Part shown: positions 4,188 through 14,072 of the stretch, piece by piece | Numbering within the stretch: the stretch's first letter is position 1 | Layout of the letters: each line of letters begins with the position of its first letter | Origin: Candidatus Woesearchaeota archaeon | GTDB lineage: Archaea > Nanobdellota > Nanobdellia > Woesearchaeales > JABIAG01 | Length of the DNA: 49,495 nucleotides | Assembly: GCA_018653365.1 (NCBI GenBank) | Contig: JABIAG010000001.1 | Coordinates: 161,031 to 210,525, forward strand | Reading direction: 5' to 3' | The notes under the pieces: generated by a model | The model's input: only the letters and a program-made list of their open reading frames with translations | What the model was told of the DNA's origin: nothing | The model's database searches: none | Position numbers and translations under genes: made by a program

Positions 4188-6464
4188 ATGGAATCCGTGC
4201 AGTATCAAGCACAACCAATGGCACAACCTCAAGTACAGCCACAAGTAGGTCAACCTCTAACAATTAAGGATTACATAAGCATAATTGGGAAAAGAAAAAA
4301 AATAATTCTAGTCCTGGCAGTGGTATTCATGATTATAGTTCTGGTCTTTCTAACTCTAGCAAAAGGAGGGAATGAGGTAAATTCACTAATCTCTCTAGTG
4401 GGCGAAAAGGGTGAAATTGGACCGATTGTAGAACAAAAAGTAATTCTGGAAGGAAGTGACGTGATTGAACCCGTAATTGCAAAAAACTTTCAAGAAGCAA
4501 TATCTCTTGATGATTTTAAATCAAGTCATATGACTGTCGAATTAGTCAGAGAACGAGTTGACAGAACAAAAGAACAATTAGTATCTTTCTTATCTTTAAC
4601 AACTAAAGCAGATACAAAAGAACAAGCTAAAAAAATAAATGATGATTTAGTGAAGCAGTTTTTTGAAATAATCGAACCAAGATATGGTGCACAAAAAGCA
4701 ATTAAAGAAAAAATAAGCGTATTTGAAGAAGAAGAACAAGCTCTAAAAGAATACATTACATTAATTGAACAAGTAATATTTGAATCCTCACAAGAAATAG
4801 AAAATGCAAATGAATTAGTAACAAAATTTAAAATACAAATTGATGCATATGTTAATAGATTTGAATCCGAGAATATTAAAGGAAAAACCTTGGATTATTA
4901 TCCTCTAATGCACACTAAAGTGTTAAATGATATTTCACGATTCAGAGAACAAGTTATTGAAGCAGAAGAGGCAACTTGGCACAGTTCACATCGAGATGCA
5001 GCAGCAGAACGATTCATAAAACAGCTTAATGCATATCAAGATAAGCTAACTTCACAAAATATAAGTGAAATGCCTGTAGAAAATTTTGTTTTAATGCAGT
5101 TTGAAATGGAAGAAGCACTAAACCAATTTCAAAAAGATGTCGTAGGTAATACCACTCAAGATGATTTTACAGGAGAGCAAGCAATGAATCAATTGTTAGA
5201 TAAACGAAAGGCGTTAAGTGACGTAAAAATACAAAAAGTACAATTTGAACAAGACTTATTATTGGAAAAGAATGCATATAGTGTTTTAAGTTCTCCTAGT
5301 TTAGCAAATTCATTAACTTCATCTTCAAATGCAGTAATTAAAGTATCTAAAGACTATGAAGACGTATATGCTGCTCTAGAGGCACAAGAGTTACTTACTT
5401 CTTCAGAAATTATGGAACCAGTAATAGTAAAATATTCCGATATGTCTTTTGAAACATTTATCGCTAGAAATTTGAATATTGACAAAGTGAAAGTTGTTAC
5501 AAACCAAGGAAACAATCAAATATTACCTTTCATTACAATTGATCTAGCTGGGCCTACTTCTGAAGAAAGTAAGCAAATGCTTCAAGAAGTTCTAGATAAC
5601 TTTTTTAATTATATTAACGAGCACAATAATTATGCAGATAAAGTAAAATTAGTTGAAGAAAAAATTGAACTAAAACAGGATGAAATAAACAACATCAAAA
5701 TTGATGTAAACTTGTTTGAAACAGACATTTATGGACAAAATTTAATGAAATTAAGAGAAATATCTTTACTAAAAACAAAGTTATTATTATCTGATTATAA
5801 AAAACGGCTTTCAGATATAAGTACTGAAAAAATAGATTTACAAGATCAATTAAGAAAACAGGGAACTTTTAATTTAATAAGTGCACCATTAACAATTCAA
5901 GGTCCTGGAGAAAAGTTTGCACCAAACAAAACTAATTTTATTCAAATAGGCATCACTGCGGTGGTAGGATTTTTTATTGCAATATTTTTAGTAATCGCAT
6001 ATGAGACAAAATTTCCAGAATATCAAGCGAGATATGCACAATTTGTACAAGCACAAAACCTCCCTGTTCAACAGGGTTCAGTTCAACCCGTTCAACCTGT
6101 CCAACAACCAATACAGCCAATTCAACAAATGCCACAACCAGTTCAACAACCTGCTGTACAGAAACAACCCTTGATATCAAAATTATTTGCCAAAGCACCC
6201 CCTGTTCAACAAATAGCCCAACCTGTTGCTCAAGCTCCAGCGCCACAACCTGTTGTTGAAAGAAAACCTTTCTTTCAAAACTTATTTGCAAATAAAACAA
6301 AAGATGTATATTATGTAACAAAGAATTCGTTTGATCAAACAGTACGAAACCAAGACCCTGGATTAGAAGAATTAAACCAATTAAAAACAACTAAGTTAGA
6401 TGATACTGTTAAAGATGAATTTGAAGTAATGAGTAAAATAAAGAAAAATTTGAAAGCAATATAA
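4188..6464 (+). CDS. Wzz-like polysaccharide co-polymerase / two-TM coiled-coil membrane protein
   Basis: 758 residues. After a Gln/Pro-rich leader (1-23), LTIKDYISIIGKRKKIILVL enters a first transmembrane helix (about 39-57). A long extracytoplasmic coiled-coil region of about 520 residues follows, with a second helix near 586-606 after a Pro/Gly stretch (LISAPLTIQGPGEKFAPNK). This is the topology and end-motif of Wzz/chain-length-determinant proteins, though it is longer than the usual 300-450 residues. The C-terminal tail (about 620-758) is Gln/Pro-rich and holds two copies of a short motif (KQPLISKLFAK and RKPFFQNLFAN). A TTTAAATA box at about 4159-4166 gives leaderless spacing. Role in surface glycan assembly is inference. 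Confidence 0.65.
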   Translation: MESVQYQAQPMAQPQVQPQVGQPLTIKDYISIIGKRKKIILVLAVVFMIIVLVFLTLAKGGNEVNSLISLVGEKGEIGPIVEQKVILEGSDVIEPVIAKNFQEAISLDDFKSSHMTVELVRERVDRTKEQLVSFLSLTTKADTKEQAKKINDDLVKQFFEIIEPRYGAQKAIKEKISVFEEEEQALKEYITLIEQVIFESSQEIENANELVTKFKIQIDAYVNRFESENIKGKTLDYYPLMHTKVLNDISRFREQVIEAEEATWHSSHRDAAAERFIKQLNAYQDKLTSQNISEMPVENFVLMQFEMEEALNQFQKDVVGNTTQDDFTGEQAMNQLLDKRKALSDVKIQKVQFEQDLLLEKNAYSVLSSPSLANSLTSSSNAVIKVSKDYEDVYAALEAQELLTSSEIMEPVIVKYSDMSFETFIARNLNIDKVKVVTNQGNNQILPFITIDLAGPTSEESKQMLQEVLDNFFNYINEHNNYADKVKLVEEKIELKQDEINNIKIDVNLFETDIYGQNLMKLREISLLKTKLLLSDYKKRLSDISTEKIDLQDQLRKQGTFNLISAPLTIQGPGEKFAPNKTNFIQIGITAVVGFFIAIFLVIAYETKFPEYQARYAQFVQAQNLPVQQGSVQPVQPVQQPIQPIQQMPQPVQQPAVQKQPLISKLFAKAPPVQQIAQPVAQAPAPQPVVERKPFFQNLFANKTKDVYYVTKNSFDQTVRNQDPGLEELNQLKTTKLDDTVKDEFEVMSKIKKNLKAI

Positions 6465-6469
6465 TTCGA

Positions 6470-8866
6470 CTATTTCTTTTCTGCTTCAGCAATTTTTAAT
6501 CTTGTTTTAAGAACAGTATCAGGGTTAAGAGAAATACTATCAATGTTTTGTTTTACAAGAAATTGAGCAAACTCTGGAAAATCACTTGGGGCTTGACCAC
6601 AAATCCCTATCTTTCTTTTATTCTTTTTGGCATGAGTTATAGCAATGGAAACCATGTCTTTTACTGCTTGATTCTGCTCATCATAAACATCACTTAAGAT
6701 TTCAGAATCTCTATCCACGCCCAAGGTAAGTTGAGTAAGATCATTACTACCTATACTAAACCCATCAAAAATCTTAGCAAAATCATCTGCAAGAATAACA
6801 TTAGAAGGAACTTCACACATAACATAAAGTTCTAACTTGTTTTTACCTTTCTTTAGACCATTTTGAGCCATGATTTTAATTACTTTCTTTCCTTCATTTA
6901 TTGTTCTACAAAAAGGGACCATTAGTTTAATATTGTTTAATCCAAATTCTTCTCTGGCTTTTTTCATAGCTTTGCATTCTAAAACAAAAGCTTCTTTATA
7001 ACCTGGTTTGTAATAACGGGAAGCGCCTCTCCAACCAATCATGGGATTATCTTCTTTAGGTTCAAACTGTTTTCCACCAATTAATGAAGCATACTCATTT
7101 GTTTTGAAGTCAGATAAACGCACAATTACATCTTTTGGATAAAAAGCAGCAGCGATAGTTCCCACCCCTCTTGCCAATTCATCAATGAAAAACTGTTTTT
7201 TATCTTTATAATTGTACGTAAGATCCTTAATTATTTTTCTTGTTTTCGAATCTTTTATTTTGTCAAAATGAATAAGCGCCATAGGATGAATCTTAATATA
7301 AGAATTTATTATGAATTCCTCTCTTGCTAAACCCACACCATCATTTGGTATGAATGAGAAGTTAAACGCTTCTTCAGGATTGCCAACATTCATCATAATC
7401 TTAGTTCTAGTCTTAGGAATAGTTTTTAGATTAGTCTTTTTAATTTTAAATGGTAAATTTCCTTTATACACAAAGCCCATCTCACCTTCAGCACAACTGA
7501 CGGTAACCATTTGTTTATTCTTTATTGCTTCAGTAGCATGATTTGTTCCAACTAAACAAGGAATGCCTAATTCTCTACTAATTATGGCAGCATGGCAGGT
7601 TCTTCCACCACGGTTAGTTACAATTGCGCTTGCTATTTTCATGATTGGTTCCCAATCAGGATCAGTCATATCAGTAACAAGAACTTCGCCTTTTTTGAAA
7701 CCATGAATTCCTTTAACATTCTTAATAATTCGAGCTTTTCCCTTACCAATTCTTTCACCAACGCTACTTCCAGTTATGAGAACAGGTCCATGTTTTATTA
7801 ATTGATATTCTTCTAATGTGTTAATATCTCTTTGTGAAGTAACTGTTTCAGGACGGGCCTGAACAATGAATAATTTTCCTGTGTTACCATCTTTAGCCCA
7901 TTCCATGTCCATTGGGGTGTAACACTTTCTTTTATTAGAATAATGATCTTCAATTATACATGCCCATTTGGCTAAAAGTAATATTTCTGATTCTGTTAAA
8001 ACAAATTTCTTTCTTTCAGTTTCATTTACACTTATTATCTTTGTAGGTTTTGAAGAATCATTAGAATAAATCATTTTGATCTTCTTTTCTCCAACTTTCT
8101 TTTTTATTATGGGTTTAAATTTGTTTAAAGTAGGTTTGAAAACATAATACTCATCTGGGTTAACAGAACCTTGAACTACTGTTTCTCCAAGTCCGTAGGC
8201 TGCAGTTATAAACGCAGCATTTTTGAATCCTGATTCAGTATCAATAGAAAACATAACTCCTGATGAAGCTAAATCGGATCGCACCATTTTTTGAACTCCT
8301 ATTGAAAGAGCAACCTTAAAATGATCAAAGCCTTTATCTTCACGGTATGAAATAGCTCTGTTTGTGAATAATGAAGCAAAACAATGTTTGCAAGATTCTA
8401 ATAAATTATTAATTCCTCTTATGTTAAGAAATGTTTCTTGTTGGCCAGCAAAGCTTGCATCAGGAAGATCTTCTGCAGTTGCACTGCTTCGTACCGCAGT
8501 ATCGCAATTTTTGCCATATTCTTTTTCTAATCTTTTGTATGCTTTAGCAATTTCAAATTTTAATTCATCTGGAAAAATTAAACTTCGTATGAGTGTTCTT
8601 ACTTGATCTCCTTTGCGTTGTAAGTTTCGTAAATTTTTAGTATTAAGTCCTTTTAGAATTGATTTAACTTTTTTTTCAGCGTCATTTGATCTTAATAAGA
8701 ATCGGTATGCCTCTGCAGTTATTGCAAAACCATTAGGAACGTTAACATGTTTCTTTTTTAGTTCACGATACATCTCACCAAGGGATGCATTTTTCCCCCC
8801 TACAATTGGAACCTCTCCAATTGAGAGTTCATTAAACCATAAAACTAATTTACTCTCTTTTTTCAT
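6470..8866 (-). CDS. ppsA: Phosphoenolpyruvate synthase
   Basis: 798 residues, full length for the family. The order is an N-terminal ATP-binding domain (GGKNASLGEM near 19, TAVRSSATAEDLPDASFAGQ near 124), the swivelling phosphohistidine domain (GGRTCHAAIISRELGIPCLV, catalytic His), and the PEP/pyruvate TIM barrel (CEVPSNVILADDFA, GFSIGSNDLTQL, ICGQAPSD). It converts pyruvate and ATP to PEP, AMP and phosphate, the gluconeogenic entry step. It has a ribosome site GGGTGAT at 8874-8880, 7 bases from the ATG, and a TATA box near 8930-8938, implying a leader of roughly 40 bases. Its stop is 5 bases from the convergent Wzz-like gene. Confidence 0.95.
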   Translation of the reverse strand: MKKESKLVLWFNELSIGEVPIVGGKNASLGEMYRELKKKHVNVPNGFAITAEAYRFLLRSNDAEKKVKSILKGLNTKNLRNLQRKGDQVRTLIRSLIFPDELKFEIAKAYKRLEKEYGKNCDTAVRSSATAEDLPDASFAGQQETFLNIRGINNLLESCKHCFASLFTNRAISYREDKGFDHFKVALSIGVQKMVRSDLASSGVMFSIDTESGFKNAAFITAAYGLGETVVQGSVNPDEYYVFKPTLNKFKPIIKKKVGEKKIKMIYSNDSSKPTKIISVNETERKKFVLTESEILLLAKWACIIEDHYSNKRKCYTPMDMEWAKDGNTGKLFIVQARPETVTSQRDINTLEEYQLIKHGPVLITGSSVGERIGKGKARIIKNVKGIHGFKKGEVLVTDMTDPDWEPIMKIASAIVTNRGGRTCHAAIISRELGIPCLVGTNHATEAIKNKQMVTVSCAEGEMGFVYKGNLPFKIKKTNLKTIPKTRTKIMMNVGNPEEAFNFSFIPNDGVGLAREEFIINSYIKIHPMALIHFDKIKDSKTRKIIKDLTYNYKDKKQFFIDELARGVGTIAAAFYPKDVIVRLSDFKTNEYASLIGGKQFEPKEDNPMIGWRGASRYYKPGYKEAFVLECKAMKKAREEFGLNNIKLMVPFCRTINEGKKVIKIMAQNGLKKGKNKLELYVMCEVPSNVILADDFAKIFDGFSIGSNDLTQLTLGVDRDSEILSDVYDEQNQAVKDMVSIAITHAKKNKRKIGICGQAPSDFPEFAQFLVKQNIDSISLNPDTVLKTRLKIAEAEKK

Positions 8867-8960: not shown

Positions 8961-9806
8961 TTATCTAATCTTTTTTTTAATAAATTCTGCAAGTTTATCT
9001 GCAATGTTGGCGTTTGATTTTTTTTCTGTAGAACTAAATACTGGAGAAAGATTACACTCAATAAAATAATGCTTATTTGTGTGATCAATTACGAAATCAA
9101 TACCACAAAAATCACAATTTAAACTTTTTGAAATTTTAATCGCATCTGTTTTTATTTTTTTAGATATTTGAATTTTAGATTCGACTTTAACACCAATCCT
9201 GGAAAAACCAGTTTGTTTTTTTATGTGTGGTGTGCGAGCAACGGATGCAATAATTTTATTGTTAAGAACAACAACTCGTAAATCAGTTTTTATGTTTTCA
9301 AAATCTTCAAGTAGGAATTCCGAGGGATCATTTTTTTTTAAGAATTTTGTAATTTCTTGTTTGTTTTTAATTAAAAAACTAAATCTGCCTTTACTTCCTA
9401 AACGTTTTTTAACAATTACAGGGAATTTTAGTTTGATTAACTTTTTGGATGAAACTTTTTGAAGAATGCGAGTGTTTGGCATATGAACCTTGTTTTTAAA
9501 GAACAAATATTGGAAAAGTTTGTCCTCAAAATAAGGATGCTTCTTGAGTGCATTTTCATCTAAAACTTTACACTTCAAACAATTAAGTAAATCATTTTGA
9601 AAAACTGAAAAGTTAAGATTTACGTCACGAGGATCCCTTAGAATAGCAAAAGACCATTTTTCATTACACACGTGTTCAATCTTTTTGAGAGTGAGCGAGG
9701 AGTAATTTAAAAAAGATACATTGAACTTTCGCTTTTTTAGCGCCGCAATTATTAATTTAACTGAACGTCCTTTTCTTGTTGCAACAATTAATATGTTTTT
9801 AGCCAT
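8961..9806 (-). CDS. RimK-like ATP-grasp ligase
   Basis: 281 residues. The first 100 form an alpha/beta pre-ATP-grasp domain (MAKNILIVATRKGRSVKLI). The ATP-grasp core follows: FPVIVKKRLGSKGRFSFLI (ATP-binding Lys and glycine loop), DLRVVVLNNKIIASVAR, and CGIDFVIDHTNKHYFIECNL with the Asp...Glu-x-Asn metal ligands. RimK/glutathione-synthase-type ligases join an amino acid or peptide to a carboxylate through an acyl phosphate. The start overlaps the stop of the DUF1704 gene by 8 bases, so the two proteins are made together. The partner suggests a ligase/peptidase cycle. Substrate unknown. Confidence 0.85.
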   Translation of the reverse strand: MAKNILIVATRKGRSVKLIIAALKKRKFNVSFLNYSSLTLKKIEHVCNEKWSFAILRDPRDVNLNFSVFQNDLLNCLKCKVLDENALKKHPYFEDKLFQYLFFKNKVHMPNTRILQKVSSKKLIKLKFPVIVKKRLGSKGRFSFLIKNKQEITKFLKKNDPSEFLLEDFENIKTDLRVVVLNNKIIASVARTPHIKKQTGFSRIGVKVESKIQISKKIKTDAIKISKSLNCDFCGIDFVIDHTNKHYFIECNLSPVFSSTEKKSNANIADKLAEFIKKKIR

Positions 9807-10881
9807 TTTTTTCCATTAATGTAAAACTTTCTGGAAGCAAGTCGGGTTTTTTTAGCTTCAATTCCTTTACAAATTTAACATCTTTAAGTCCAATTTTACC
9901 AAAATACAAATCATTAATGTTTCCTCCTCGCGAAACAAAGTTTTTAACTTGATAATAACCATCTAAATAAATATAATCTTTAGAAAAACCCCCTGGTAAA
10001 GAGGTATCAACCAATCCTCGTTTAGCTCTTAAAGTTAGTTGAAATGCCTTGTTCTTATCAAAGAACCTTCGAAGTTCTCTAAATGTTTTGAAAAAACTAT
10101 TTTTTTGAGCGGTATTAACAGCAATAACTCTGCCTGCATAATTCTGTAAGAAAACTTTTTTTAAAAGTCCAAATCGTTCCTCATTATAAACTGCAAGTCC
10201 TTCTTCTGTGATTAAATATTTTGCTAAACCCTTTTTAAAAATTTGTAATTCTTGTTTCTTCCCATTCTCATATCTAAAAGCATGAGTACCAATTTCATGA
10301 ACAATTAATCGATTAATAAAATTCTTTGAGAATCTTTCTTTTTGTTTAAGAATGATTAATTTTTTATCTGACTCAACAGAACAACTTGTAACCAAATCTT
10401 TGTTCTTGATTTTATAATCTAAATTAAACCTTCTCAAGTTTTCCATTAGAATCTTAACTGCATCTTTTTTAAGGATTTTCTTAGCAGGTTTTAGATTAAG
10501 TTTATCATTTAAAATACGATATGCTTTGTTAATTAGTTTTTTACTAGGAAGACCAAACACTTTAACACTTTTTTCAGTGAAATCAAAGCAGCCCAAGCTG
10601 TTAAGAAGATCCACGTGCCTAATTAATTCTCTTTGACGTTCTACAATAATTGTGTCGAGAAAATCTCTTTCCTCAATTGCAATTGAAGAAAGTTTTTGCC
10701 TTAAAGCAAGAAGTTTTGTTGTTGGAAGAGTATATTTTAATGTGGGGTTCTTAGATTTGTTACTCATAAATACTTTTTTAGCATAAGACGCGTTAATTGG
10801 ATTTATTAAAGAAAAGGGGAGTTGACTGGTTGCATCAGCTAAAATTTTATCTGCAGCCCTAATCTCCTTTCGAATCTTCAT
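9799..10881 (-). CDS. DUF1704 zincin peptidase (MATCAP/KIAA0895-like)
   Basis: 360 residues. The HExxxH metalloprotease motif is HEIGTH (His195, Glu196, His200), followed by AFRYENG and then TEEGLAVYNE with a Glu ligand candidate near 226-227. This HExxxH...EEGLA layout is the DUF1704 hallmark, also called the 'QEGLA motif' family. Eukaryotic relatives (MATCAP) remove the C-terminal tyrosine from alpha-tubulin. The archaeal substrate is unknown. The mRNA starts close to the ATG (TATA box about 10901-10910, 25 bases away). It is the first gene of a two-gene operon with the ATP-grasp ligase and diverges from the AP-endonuclease gene. Confidence 0.85.
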   Translation of the reverse strand: MKIRKEIRAADKILADATSQLPFSLINPINASYAKKVFMSNKSKNPTLKYTLPTTKLLALRQKLSSIAIEERDFLDTIIVERQRELIRHVDLLNSLGCFDFTEKSVKVFGLPSKKLINKAYRILNDKLNLKPAKKILKKDAVKILMENLRRFNLDYKIKNKDLVTSCSVESDKKLIILKQKERFSKNFINRLIVHEIGTHAFRYENGKKQELQIFKKGLAKYLITEEGLAVYNEERFGLLKKVFLQNYAGRVIAVNTAQKNSFFKTFRELRRFFDKNKAFQLTLRAKRGLVDTSLPGGFSKDYIYLDGYYQVKNFVSRGGNINDLYFGKIGLKDVKFVKELKLKKPDLLPESFTLMEKNG

Positions 10882-10900
10882 ATTTAACTATTTAGTCTAG

Positions 10901-10920
10901 TATATAAAAACTTTTTTATA
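10901..10920. promoter_or_regulatory. Back-to-back TATA boxes of divergent genes
   Basis: TATATAAAAAC and CTTTTTTATA abut between the DUF1704 start (10881) and the AP-endonuclease start (10942). The left element is about 24-25 bases from the minus-strand ATG. The right one is centred about 25 bases before the plus-strand ATG. The two core promoters are adjacent, so TBP/TFB binding at one could exclude the other. Confidence 0.6.
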
Positions 10921-10941
10921 AGTCTGAATTGTTTAGGTGAT

Positions 10942-11763
10942 ATGTTTAAGCGATTAAGGTTTGGAAATGCAGGAGCTCCACTGAGTTCGGTTTCTAGAAA
11001 AATTCCGGACGGGATCCAACGACAAAAAGAATTAAAGTTAGATGGACTAGAGATACAGTTTGTAAGACAGGTCTATCTTCACAAAGAACAATGCCCTGAA
11101 ATAAAAACATTGGCTAAAAAAGAAGATAAAGTGTTAACCTGTCATGCCTCTTTTTTTGTAAACCTAAGTTCTAATGATAAAGAAAAACAAACACAATCCC
11201 TGCAACGAATTTATGACGCTGCAATAATGGCAGATAAGTGTGGAGCTAAATTTGTAACCTTTCATGCAGGATATTATCACGATAACGATCATGAAGAGGT
11301 GTATCAAACAATTAAAAATAACCTCTCACAATTAAAAGACAAATTAGAACATGAGGGCTGTAAAATAAAATTAAGTCCAGAGACAACAGGCAAGATTTCT
11401 CAATTTGGGAGTTTGCATGAGCTAGTGAGATTGGGTAAAGAGATCGGAACACACCTCTGTGTAGACTTTGCACACTTACATGCGCGTGAAGGAAAGGTTA
11501 ATAGTTATGAAGAGTTTTGTAATGTTCTGAGTTTGTTGAAAACGGAGTTAAATTGTTTAGATAATATGCATATTCATATGGCGGGAATAAATTATGGGCC
11601 TAAAGGAGAAAGGAATCATTTGAATCTAAAAGATTCAGACTTTAAATGGAAAGAGTTAATGAAAGCCTTCAAAGAGTTTGGGGTTAGGGGGATAATTATT
11701 AGTGAAAGTCCTAATATTGAGGGAGATGCAATGTTAATGAGGGACTATTATGAATCACTCTAA
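10942..11763 (+). CDS. Endonuclease IV-like AP endonuclease (xylose-isomerase TIM barrel)
   Basis: 273 residues. Features of the AP endonuclease family 2 barrel are visible: LKLDGLEIQFV near 31, TCHASFFVNLSS (metal His), KFVTFHAGYYH (metal His), IKLSPETTG (metal Glu), HLCVDFAHLHAR (Asp and His ligands), NMHIHMAG, and IIISESPNIEGDAML. Endonuclease IV cleaves 5' of abasic sites using three metal ions. Sequence divergence means sugar-isomerase-like chemistry cannot be excluded, but overlap with endonuclease III (14 bases) strongly favours base-excision repair. The start has a TATA box at about 10913-10920. Confidence 0.82.
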   Translation: MFKRLRFGNAGAPLSSVSRKIPDGIQRQKELKLDGLEIQFVRQVYLHKEQCPEIKTLAKKEDKVLTCHASFFVNLSSNDKEKQTQSLQRIYDAAIMADKCGAKFVTFHAGYYHDNDHEEVYQTIKNNLSQLKDKLEHEGCKIKLSPETTGKISQFGSLHELVRLGKEIGTHLCVDFAHLHAREGKVNSYEEFCNVLSLLKTELNCLDNMHIHMAGINYGPKGERNHLNLKDSDFKWKELMKAFKEFGVRGIIISESPNIEGDAMLMRDYYESL

Positions 11764-12349
11764 GGCTTTAAGACAATTAAATGAGTTAAGTGAGCATAAT
11801 TCAGATCCGCGATTAGCTGCAGAAGGCTGGAGTGAAGATTGGCAAATTTTAATTGCAACATTGTTGTCAGCTAGGACTAGAGATACAGTAACAGTTAAGG
11901 TCGCCACAGCATTGTTTGAAAAATATAAAACTCTAAAAGAAATTTCAGAATTAAATTTGGAAGCGTTGGAACAGGAAATAAAATCCGTTAATTTTTATCG
12001 AAATAAAGCAAGATTTGTGTTGGGATGTGTAAAAGGAATTTTAGAACATTTTAGTGAAGGTTTGCCTTGCGATGCTTCGGAGTTAGTTAAGTTAACTGGT
12101 GTAGGAAGAAAGACGGCAAATGTGTTCATTGCATCAATGGGTGGAGATGCCATAGGTGTGGATACTCATGTGGGGCGGGTGGCGCGTAAGTTGGGATGGA
12201 CAACTCACACCGATCCTGATAAGGTTGAGAAAGATCTTTGTGAACTGTTTCCTCAATCTTCCTGGCGAAGTGTGAACTATATTTTAGTTAAGTTTGGACA
12301 AAGTAATAGAGGGAAAAAAGAAGATTTAATTTTAGAAAAGATAAAATAG
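11750..12349 (+). CDS. nth: Endonuclease III-like DNA glycosylase lacking the Fe-S tail
   Basis: 199 residues. The HhH-GPD core is intact: LTGVGRKTANVF with catalytic Lys121, and GVDTHVGRVARKLGW with catalytic Asp138, matching Escherichia coli Lys120/Asp138. It excises oxidised pyrimidines and nicks by beta-elimination. The usual C-terminal Cys-x6-Cys-x2-Cys-x5-Cys iron-sulfur loop is absent: the protein ends in a basic GQSNRGKKEDLILEKIK. It overlaps the upstream AP endonuclease gene by 14 bases, coupling glycosylase and AP-site cleavage. Confidence 0.9.
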   Translation: MNHSKALRQLNELSEHNSDPRLAAEGWSEDWQILIATLLSARTRDTVTVKVATALFEKYKTLKEISELNLEALEQEIKSVNFYRNKARFVLGCVKGILEHFSEGLPCDASELVKLTGVGRKTANVFIASMGGDAIGVDTHVGRVARKLGWTTHTDPDKVEKDLCELFPQSSWRSVNYILVKFGQSNRGKKEDLILEKIK

Positions 12350-12390
12350 AAAACAATCAACTTTATTAATCCTCATCATGATGGAGAGTT

Positions 12391-13197
12391 ATGGCAGGAA
12401 GAGTACAAAGTCCATCGTCAATTAATTTATTTAGACAGTGTCCAAGAAAATATTTCTATCAGTACATTCTTAAGTTAGTTACTGGTTCGAATATACATCT
12501 AGTTCGAGGAAAAGCAGTACACTCAGTGTTGGAAAATTTCTTTAAAGTCAATATATCACAAATTCATTCTGAAAACTTTGATTTTGAATTACGAACTTTA
12601 TTATTTGACATGTTTAGACAGGAATGGAGAAAATCAAAACCCGAATTAGAAAAAATAGGTATAACAATACATAACCAGATTTATTATTACAATGAAACCA
12701 AAAGAATGTTAACAAATTGGTTTGATGGATTTGTAGGTAAGTTACAGGGATTGATGGTTGATCGAGGACTAGTTGAGGGATTCAAATATTTAACTCCAAT
12801 AACTGAGCAGTATTATGAATCGTCTTCTCATAAGGTTAGAGGGTACATAGACGCAGTACACGAATGGGCAGAGGGAGTACACATAGTAGATTATAAAACT
12901 TCTTCACGAGATAAGATGAGCGATGATTATATGTTACAATTGGGGATATATGCAATGATGTACAAACAAAAACACGGAGTTGCACCCAAAAAAGTAGGAA
13001 TTAATTTTTTAAAATTTGGTGAAAAGTTCATAGATGTTGATGATGTGCTTATTAGAGATGCAGAAGCAGCATGTGAACAAATACAATTTGATACTCAAAG
13101 CGAAGAAAAAATAGATTATCCCAAAAAACAATCTGGATTGTGTAAATGGTCAACAGGACAGTGTGATTTCTATGAAACCTGCATTAAGGACAATTAA
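12391..13197 (+). CDS. RecB/AddB-like PD-(D/E)XK nuclease with probable 4Fe-4S cluster
   Basis: 268 residues. It opens with SPSSINLFRQCPRKYFYQY (Cys17), then GKAVHSVLENFF. The nuclease core is RGYIDAVHEW...VHIVDYKTSS (Asp, then Asp-x-Lys), then LQLGIYAMMYK. Cys251, Cys258 and Cys264 near the end pair with Cys17 to make the Cas4/AddB-type split Fe-S site; the Cys251-Cys258 gap of six is wider than the common two. The family resects or trims DNA ends in repair or CRISPR adaptation. No CRISPR array or cas gene is here, so repair is more likely. A TTTATTAAT box at 12362-12370 precedes a leaderless start. Confidence 0.82.
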   Translation: MAGRVQSPSSINLFRQCPRKYFYQYILKLVTGSNIHLVRGKAVHSVLENFFKVNISQIHSENFDFELRTLLFDMFRQEWRKSKPELEKIGITIHNQIYYYNETKRMLTNWFDGFVGKLQGLMVDRGLVEGFKYLTPITEQYYESSSHKVRGYIDAVHEWAEGVHIVDYKTSSRDKMSDDYMLQLGIYAMMYKQKHGVAPKKVGINFLKFGEKFIDVDDVLIRDAEAACEQIQFDTQSEEKIDYPKKQSGLCKWSTGQCDFYETCIKDN

Positions 13198-13232
13198 CTT
13201 TTTATTTATTAAAGTTTGATTAAGTTATAATC

Positions 13233-14072
13233 ATGAAATGTTATAATGTTTTAACTGAAAAAAATGAAGAATGTAACGAGTTAGTTGTAAGTAAAGAACG
13301 GGGTGTCGAATTTCTGGTATCTATTCCACATTCAGGGATATTAATTCCTGAAAATCTTAAAAAAAATATTGTTCTAGATTCTTTAAGAAAAGAGGGAGAC
13401 CTATATACTGATGAAATATTTACTTTGAGTAAAGGAATTGTGATCAAATCTAAATTAATGCCTTTAGTGCTTAATGTGAGTCGACACAAAACTGGGTTGA
13501 AAGGGGATGTGCCAAAACACCTCTTAAAAGATCCAATTCACACCTCGCGTTTAGGTGGACAAAAACATCCTTTAATTGAGTATACTTCTGTAGAAAAAGA
13601 AGAATTACTAGTATATTATGATCAATATCATTCCAAAATTAAAGAGAGTGTAATAAAGATAAAAGAAACAAACGGTTTCGTGGTTGTTTTAGATGGACAC
13701 TCACTACTTTCAGTCGGGTTAGAAAACACCCCTGATAAAGGAAAAGAAAGAGCAGATTTTATAGTTGGAACATTAGATGATACTTCTGCACATCCAAAAA
13801 TTATTGAAACTTTTTATGAAAGTTTGAAGCGTAATGCTGCGGAATACGATTTAACGGTTGTTAAAAACAAACCCTACAAAGGAGGATTTATTACCTCAAA
13901 TTATGCGAATCCCGCAGAAAAGGTGAACGTGATCCAATTAGAGATAAAACGAAGCATATATCTTAATGAAAAAACATTTGAAAAATATCCTAAAAAAATA
14001 GAAATGTTAAACTTGATTCTTGAAAAAGTAATGAGCGAAACTATTAAAGTTGCTAAACAAGTTTATGATTAG
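13233..14072 (+). CDS. N-formylglutamate amidohydrolase-like protein
   Basis: 279 residues. Signature segments are SIPHSGILIPENL (about 30-42), VNVSRHKTG, VVVLDGHSLL and NVIQLEIKRSIYL, which match the FGase/HutG family of zinc-dependent amidohydrolases. Classical members release formate from N-formylglutamate in histidine breakdown. I see no histidine-utilisation gene nearby, so hydrolysis of another N-acyl or gamma-linked glutamate substrate is possible. Distant family members occur beside DUF1704 peptidases and ATP-grasp ligases, both encoded 2-4 kb away here. A TTTATTAAA box about 25 bases upstream suggests its own promoter. Confidence 0.8.
   Translation: MKCYNVLTEKNEECNELVVSKERGVEFLVSIPHSGILIPENLKKNIVLDSLRKEGDLYTDEIFTLSKGIVIKSKLMPLVLNVSRHKTGLKGDVPKHLLKDPIHTSRLGGQKHPLIEYTSVEKEELLVYYDQYHSKIKESVIKIKETNGFVVVLDGHSLLSVGLENTPDKGKERADFIVGTLDDTSAHPKIIETFYESLKRNAAEYDLTVVKNKPYKGGFITSNYANPAEKVNVIQLEIKRSIYLNEKTFEKYPKKIEMLNLILEKVMSETIKVAKQVYD

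Follow-up and report, generated by a model that had tools for sequence, protein, structure and literature searches.

An ATP-grasp ligase gene overlapping a MATCAP-family zincin gene in a Woesearchaeota archaeon: a candidate pair for adding and removing a terminal amino acid

Reversible tagging with C-terminal amino acids is well known for tubulin, and ligase-peptidase pairs are already known in the forms RimK-RimB, Rlo and TTL-MATCAP. For prokaryotes, ribosomal protein S6 is so far essentially the one documented case of C-terminal extension (PMC11957791). Does an archaeon encode a pair of this kind as well? The question is raised by a stretch of 49,495 nucleotides from Candidatus Woesearchaeota archaeon (assembly GCA_018653365.1, contig JABIAG010000001.1, positions 161,031 to 210,525 of the forward strand), the whole of which is called the window here, and in which the gene of an ATP-grasp ligase overlaps that of a zincin of the MATCAP (DUF1704) family. 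We consider it very probable that the ligase and the MATCAP act in one process; that they would add and remove a terminal amino acid on the protein or peptide tail of one target is judged by analogy with known systems and is given a probability of about 0.5. The host genome (1.09 Mb in three contigs, ~95% complete) contains one MATCAP gene, one gene of the N-formylglutamate amidohydrolase (FGase) family and three RimK-family genes. The pair comprises the following features, AF2 denoting AlphaFold2 models:

8961-9806, reverse strand: RimK/LysX-type ATP-grasp carboxylate-amine ligase, 281 amino acids, predicted writer (PF08443, AF2, Foldseek)
9051-9059, reverse strand: Mg/ATP-binding ECN motif, ligase residues 250-252 (sequence; E250 and N252 invariant)
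9384-9398, reverse strand: ATP-grasp flexible loop GSKGR, ligase residues 137-141 (sequence; G137 and G140 invariant)
9799-9806, reverse strand: overlap of the MATCAP 3' end with the ligase start, 8 nucleotides (nt), co-translation expected (open reading frame coordinates)
9799-10881, reverse strand: MATCAP/DUF1704 zincin metallocarboxypeptidase, 360 amino acids, predicted eraser (PF08014, phmmer, AF2, Foldseek)
10192-10206, reverse strand: EEGLA motif with the putative third metal ligand, zincin residues 226-230 (sequence and alignment)
10282-10299, reverse strand: HEIGTH metal-binding and catalytic motif, zincin residues 195-200 (sequence and alignment)

The zincin belongs to the MATCAP family with 167 bits against the PF08014 model (curated cut-off 27), while its score for the bacterial QEGLA subfamily TIGR02421 (187.4 bits) lies below the curated cut-off of 338.65. 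It matches human MATCAP (7z5g) in phmmer with an E-value of 1.2e-14, and its AF2 model (predicted local distance difference test, pLDDT, 93.3) finds the same protein in Foldseek over 349 columns, which is its whole length (7z5g_B; template modelling scores 0.66/0.72, E-value 7.9e-11), followed by M32 carboxypeptidases as the next best structures. Residues H195, E196, H200, E226, E227 and G228 are invariant in an alignment of 15 archaeal sequences. In human TMCP1 the putative third metal ligand lies within the EEG motif, and human MATCAPs take off the C-terminal Tyr and then Glu (PMC10499314). With both HEIGTH and EEGLA in place, the third metal ligand of the window zincin is present, and by its family the enzyme is a predicted metallocarboxypeptidase that may act on protein tails.

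The ligase scores 82.2 bits against the RimK domain model PF08443 (cut-off 21) and 101.2 bits against the rimK_fam model TIGR00768, which is under the curated cut-off of 143.4; we thus keep the claim that it works like RimK and lower the claim that it is a member of that subfamily. The LysX model TIGR02144 gives 60.7 bits at a cut-off of 275.6, and the tubulin tyrosine ligase model (TTL, PF03133) gives a partial match of 21.7 bits, slightly above its cut-off of 20.1 and far below the RimK score. Foldseek searches with the AF2 model (pLDDT 82.6) place ArgX with LysW, LysX/ArgX with LysW-gamma-AAA and RimK with RpsF at the top, and these nearest folds, as far as the model goes, are those of ligases working on the carboxylate of a protein C-terminus (Glu). 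Both by sequence and by fold, the ligase is closer to RimK/LysX than to glutathione synthetase (GSH-S). Across eight related ligases, most of them MATCAP-linked, K96, K133, G137, G140, D175, R177, R191, D237, E250 and N252 are invariant, and the predicted ATP and Mg ligands are intact. The initial annotation, made from the sequence alone, had described an ATP-grasp ligase and a HExxxH...EEGLA zincin overlapping by 8 bases in one operon, with an FGase-like gene nearby; coordinates and Pfam confirm all three genes as placed. It had tied its proposal to a zincin active site with the third metal ligand, which is there, and had suggested structure prediction, in which the models show the human MATCAP fold and the ArgX/LysX/RimK fold.

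Do relatives also encode the two enzymes together? Among nine relatives sampled first, no MATCAP gene had an ATP-grasp neighbour, yet a wider search overturned this result and revealed ATP-grasp genes adjoining MATCAP at at least six other loci of the host's order (Woesearchaeales), whose members bear Woesearchaeota or Nanoarchaeota names. MATCAP is encoded in 64 and FGase in 39 of the 353 genomes of the order, and 16 genomes have both (odds ratio 3.9; Fisher p 3e-4 without correction for phylogeny). Genome G274 (locus L082, also L188) has MATCAP and ligase with an 11-nt overlap, followed on that strand by FGase after 1.3 kb; G069 (L122) and G068 (L168, where the contig end falls inside MATCAP) carry a single FGase-ligase-MATCAP operon with overlaps of 4 and 20 nt; L196 combines MATCAP-ligase with a convergent FGase gene; and at L108, L131, L136 and L138 an ATP-grasp gene adjoins MATCAP. 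GSH-S-like among these are the ligase of L108 and, in L138, the ATP-grasp domain; L171, likewise GSH-S-like, lies next to an FGase gene. Of the genes directly beside MATCAP across the order, the window included, 7 of 128 are ATP-grasps of the profile used, versus 3 of 691 genes farther away (13-fold, Fisher p 1.6e-4); the carbamoyl-phosphate synthase of L183 and the DUF1246/DUF1297 protein of L169 were left out of the ATP-grasp/FGase pair counts. On a MATCAP tree the ATP-grasp linkage takes about nine changes, of which at least five are forced by well-supported splits (rows L221, L224 and L232, labelled 'none', are really fusions, and the GSH-S label of L131 and L136 was given without testing by Pfam). 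The ATP-grasp partners are drawn from the RimK, GSH-S and ATPgrasp_ST subfamilies, which argues for repeated recruitment, as expected for one purpose. Two further architectures were seen in passing: two tandem MATCAP genes with a 4-nt overlap in G327 (L133:7071-9364), and a 1034-aa protein (L091:1323-4427, one in-frame stop reported) whose C-terminus is MATCAP and whose ~730 N-terminal residues lack a Pfam domain.

The closest coupling is found in bacteria of the Candidate Phyla Radiation (CPR; Peregrinibacteria, Gracilibacteria, Parcubacteria and others). In one MATCAP clade, all 24 of 24 loci (within L221-L260; example L240:1907-4267) encode a single polypeptide composed of an N-terminal ATPgrasp_ST domain, a linker and MATCAP, and in 22 of the 24 a 7TM_transglut gene (PKD-7TM_transglut protein) lies upstream. 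Pfam and PDB profile searches found no retropepsin in the linker; its weak likeness to the RloA retropepsin (hhalign P 0.0037, degenerate DTG motif) is suggestive only. Rhizobial plasmids, pSymB among them, carry FGase-QEGLA(MATCAP)-glutathione synthetase operons whose first two genes overlap by 4 nt; here the ligase is a full GSH-S_N plus GSH-S_ATP protein, and the MATCAP/QEGLA protein (L289:4257-6155, L288:4257-6143) has an N-terminal extension of ~270 residues without a Pfam domain. Recurrent archaeal adjacency, the archaeal and rhizobial operons that include FGase, and the CPR fusion together show that the coupling of ligase and MATCAP is real, and since distantly related microbes also encode the two activities side by side or in one chain, a write-and-erase pair is probable. 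The genome-neighbourhood comparison on which the initial annotation had staked its tagging and untagging system is thus favourable: relatives do pair the genes, up to complete triads, and the joint work of ligase and MATCAP stands, its tyrosine/tubulin analogy being the weak part.

How might the two enzymes work? Ligases of the ATP-grasp superfamily generally form an acyl-phosphate and couple it to an amine. In the window, the ligase would spend ATP to turn a carboxylate on the tail of a protein or peptide, either the C-terminal or a gamma one, into an acyl-phosphate, to which the amino group of an incoming amino acid would then be coupled; an acidic residue, for instance glutamate, is the likeliest. 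MATCAP would then take the terminal residue off again, and the balance between the two may fix how long the tag becomes, in the manner of RimK and RimB, the latter a protease. FGase could help in the wider system as an accessory amidase that perhaps handles residues linked in another way or already released.

Such a cycle resembles established systems to differing degrees. RimB removes the Glu tail added by RimK, and a RimBK fusion exists (PMC11957791). As in this RimABK system of S6 polyglutamylation, an ATP-grasp ligase and a peptidase are encoded together, ligase-peptidase fusions exist, and the genes are coupled, by overlap in the window and by recurrent linkage and fusion elsewhere. RimB, however, is a retropepsin-like aspartic endopeptidase and the window peptidase a MATCAP zincin, S6 as target is bacterial, and no RimA is seen at the window, so the likeness is one of working principle and not of membership. 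In the Pseudomonas rlo operon, a known ligase/peptidase operon, RloB and RloC are paired, and an aspartic enzyme, RloA, serves as the peptidase (PMC12239564). The CPR relatives likewise pair 7TM_transglut, the inactive transglutaminase-7TM type of RloB, with ATPgrasp_ST, the ATP-grasp type of RloC, as does a Legionella example; they differ in that the ligase is fused to MATCAP and only the linker is weakly RloA-like. The window pair has neither RloB nor RloA as neighbour, and its ligase is RimK-type. A related arrangement was noticed in the plasmid of Halobacterium sp. DL1 (L300:3164-4918), in which 7TM_transglut and ATPgrasp_ST form one unannotated protein of 584 amino acids, an archaeal RloB-RloC fusion. 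The bacterial QEGLA operons of rhizobia share FGase, MATCAP and ATP-grasp families in one operon, but their ligase is GSH-S-like, their peptidase is N-terminally extended, and in the window FGase lies outside the operon.

Two further features lie around the operon of the window:

10882-10941, no strand given: putative divergent intergenic promoter region with the TATA-like element TTTTTATATAC ~19-29 nt before the MATCAP start (read by eye from the sequence only)
13233-14072, forward strand: FGase-family metallohydrolase, 279 amino acids, membership in the window's system uncertain (PF05013)

The operon probably comprises MATCAP and ligase alone, because a TATA-like element precedes MATCAP and the downstream phosphoenolpyruvate (PEP) synthase gene (6470-8866) is set off by 94 nt with a putative TATA-like element of its own, both elements being read by eye. 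PEP synthase was considered as a third operon member and rejected for this gap, for its own element and because it is a full housekeeping enzyme (TIGR01418, 1186 bits). At another locus (G016, L013:1671-8832) four proteins matching the window PEP synthase lie upstream of MATCAP; they are not typical PEP synthases, and the two checked contain PEP-utilizer mobile domains, a type differing from that of the window. FGase is found 2.35 kb from the pair on the opposite strand, with three genes unrelated to the system in between (TIM-barrel AP_endonuc_2, endonuclease III and a Cas4-like nuclease, by Pfam), and it is therefore outside the MATCAP-ligase operon; two of the three triad genes form an operon in the window, and the full operon is present in L122, L168 and rhizobia.

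The FGase-like protein falls within the broad FGase family (PF05013, 110 bits; cut-off 28.9) and below the curated cut-off for the N-formylglutamate deformylase HutG (TIGR02017, 79.4 bits; cut-off 278.75). Its best relatives among the collected loci are those of L196 (200 bits) and L082 (192 bits), with the next at 91 bits, and its MATCAP-linked relatives are in L082, L196, L122 and L168. The closest FGase in the phylum sample (G442, 43%) shares with the window FGase the nearby genes for AP_endonuc_2 and a CCA enzyme, and no MATCAP was found in that genome, which is 87% complete; the membership of FGase in the window is uncertain for this reason. The initial annotation had proposed FGase as part of the system while leaving its membership uncertain. 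It belongs to the wider one, as the archaeal and rhizobial operons demonstrate, and its place in the window may be historical. In G442 the FGase gene overlaps a second gene (L296:8987-9832 and 9819-10802) whose start (APHSG...DDHSE) appears FGase-like by eye without a Pfam match. Turning to the remaining surroundings, the pair and FGase were also considered as a defence system, and PADLOC gave no match for either. Positions 4188-6464 encode a protein of 758 amino acids that matches no Pfam family and contains two hydrophobic segments as well as long stretches that are PQ-rich or resemble coiled coils.

Several observations weigh against a dedicated pair that tags a protein. Most MATCAP loci of the order (59 of 66, ~90%) lack an adjacent ATP-grasp gene of the profile used, so that no dedicated neighbour is needed for the peptidase to act, and the Fisher test of adjacency overstates independence because the archaeal loci derive from metagenome-assembled genomes and are partly related. 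We know of no archaeal counterpart of S6, the bacterial RimK target. A small peptide as product is suggested by those MATCAP-linked ligases that resemble glutathione synthetase (L108, L138, rhizobia). In Photobacterium damselae, GshB and a QEGLA protein with neighbouring locus tags are 38-fold and 27-fold up, respectively, at 1% versus 3% NaCl (PMC10308900), which is co-expression and not opposition.

The last points lead to the alternative that survives best: the ligase might build a glutathione-like peptide or the glutamyl tail of a coenzyme, with MATCAP and FGase trimming, activating or recycling it, and no protein would be tagged. Enzymes of the FGase family classically act on N-acyl amino acids, and this agrees with such a role, as do the full glutathione synthetase of the rhizobial operons and the GSH-S-like proteins of L108, L138 and L171. 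Furthermore, ATP-grasp alpha-L-glutamate ligases such as MptN and MyfB also act on coenzymes (PMC8141765). The window ligase, however, is nearer to RimK/LysX, with the protein-bound ArgX and RimK among its best structures, the MATCAPs characterised so far all work on the tails of proteins (PMC10499314), and in the CPR fusions the ATPgrasp_ST ligase is of the Rlo type and has a partner in the membrane. We regard the small-molecule alternative as possible and somewhat improbable.

It is also conceivable that MATCAP is a general metallopeptidase and that the proximity of ATP-grasp genes is incidental in this lineage. An adjacent ATP-grasp gene at only 7 of 66 loci of the order (profile used) would fit this, and unpaired MATCAPs adjoin translation genes: PTH2 accounts for 8 of 70 same-strand neighbours, with RsmB/F and RNase HII among the others, hinting at a translation-linked context. 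The adjacency enrichment and the forced changes on the MATCAP tree speak for linkage, as do repeated recruitment from several subfamilies and the rhizobial triads, and the 24 CPR fusions strongly disfavour independence, which we consider very unlikely. Slightly less credit still is due to a carrier mechanism in which the ligase loads an amino acid onto a LysW-like protein for biosynthesis and the zincin frees the product like LysK. Here the best structural and sequence matches of the ligase are ArgX/LysX, and fold, size and the logic of a ligase with a metallopeptidase on a protein carboxylate are shared with LysX/ArgX-LysW-LysK; against it stand the different peptidase family, a LysX score far under the cut-off, an operon without lysine or arginine synthesis genes, and a LysW model that is positive in four control genomes and finds no homologue in the host genome, an absence that is not absolute because this genome is incomplete. 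A cycle of tyrosine addition and removal at the tail of FtsZ, in which the homology of MATCAP to tubulin detyrosinase and the weak TTL match of the ligase would be read after the tubulin analogy of the initial annotation, is scarcely credible, since sequence and fold both assign the ligase to the RimK/LysX type, FtsZ occurs in 10 of 10 genomes searched, where MATCAP is present with or without a ligase partner, and none of 20 FtsZ-family proteins from these genomes has an acid-rich or tyrosine C-terminus, most ending in ELGIEFVD or ELGIEIVR-type sequences unlike tubulin tails.

We accordingly return to the ligase and MATCAP as writer and eraser, with the eukaryotic system as a parallel in logic: MATCAP/TMCP (KIAA0895L, KIAA0895) shares the zincin family, the HExxxH and EEG motifs and the fold with the window zincin, and the opposing TTL/TTLL ligases are ATP-grasp enzymes as well, whereas the window has no tubulin, a RimK/LysX-type ligase and physically coupled genes. 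Neither a paper combining DUF1704 with ATP-grasp nor an established role for prokaryotic MATCAP homologues was found in the literature searched. As far as this literature shows, the archaeal MATCAP version and the CPR fusions are an undescribed variant; Iyer et al. (2009) reportedly treat ATP-grasp/peptidase neighbourhoods, and prior knowledge of the triad may be underrated here. It would be a doubtful step further to propose a widespread, undescribed prokaryotic tagging module of DPANN archaea, CPR bacteria and rhizobial plasmids, in which ATP-grasp ligases of several subfamilies and MATCAP would modify a cellular protein reversibly at its C-terminus. The linkage, above all in the single-chain fusions, implies that the substrate of the ligase should equal that of the peptidase, which makes the role of prokaryotic MATCAP directly assayable. 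Should the target prove to be a protein, the tubulin code would not be alone in its writer-eraser logic, and prokaryotes would offer parallels that do not involve tubulin.

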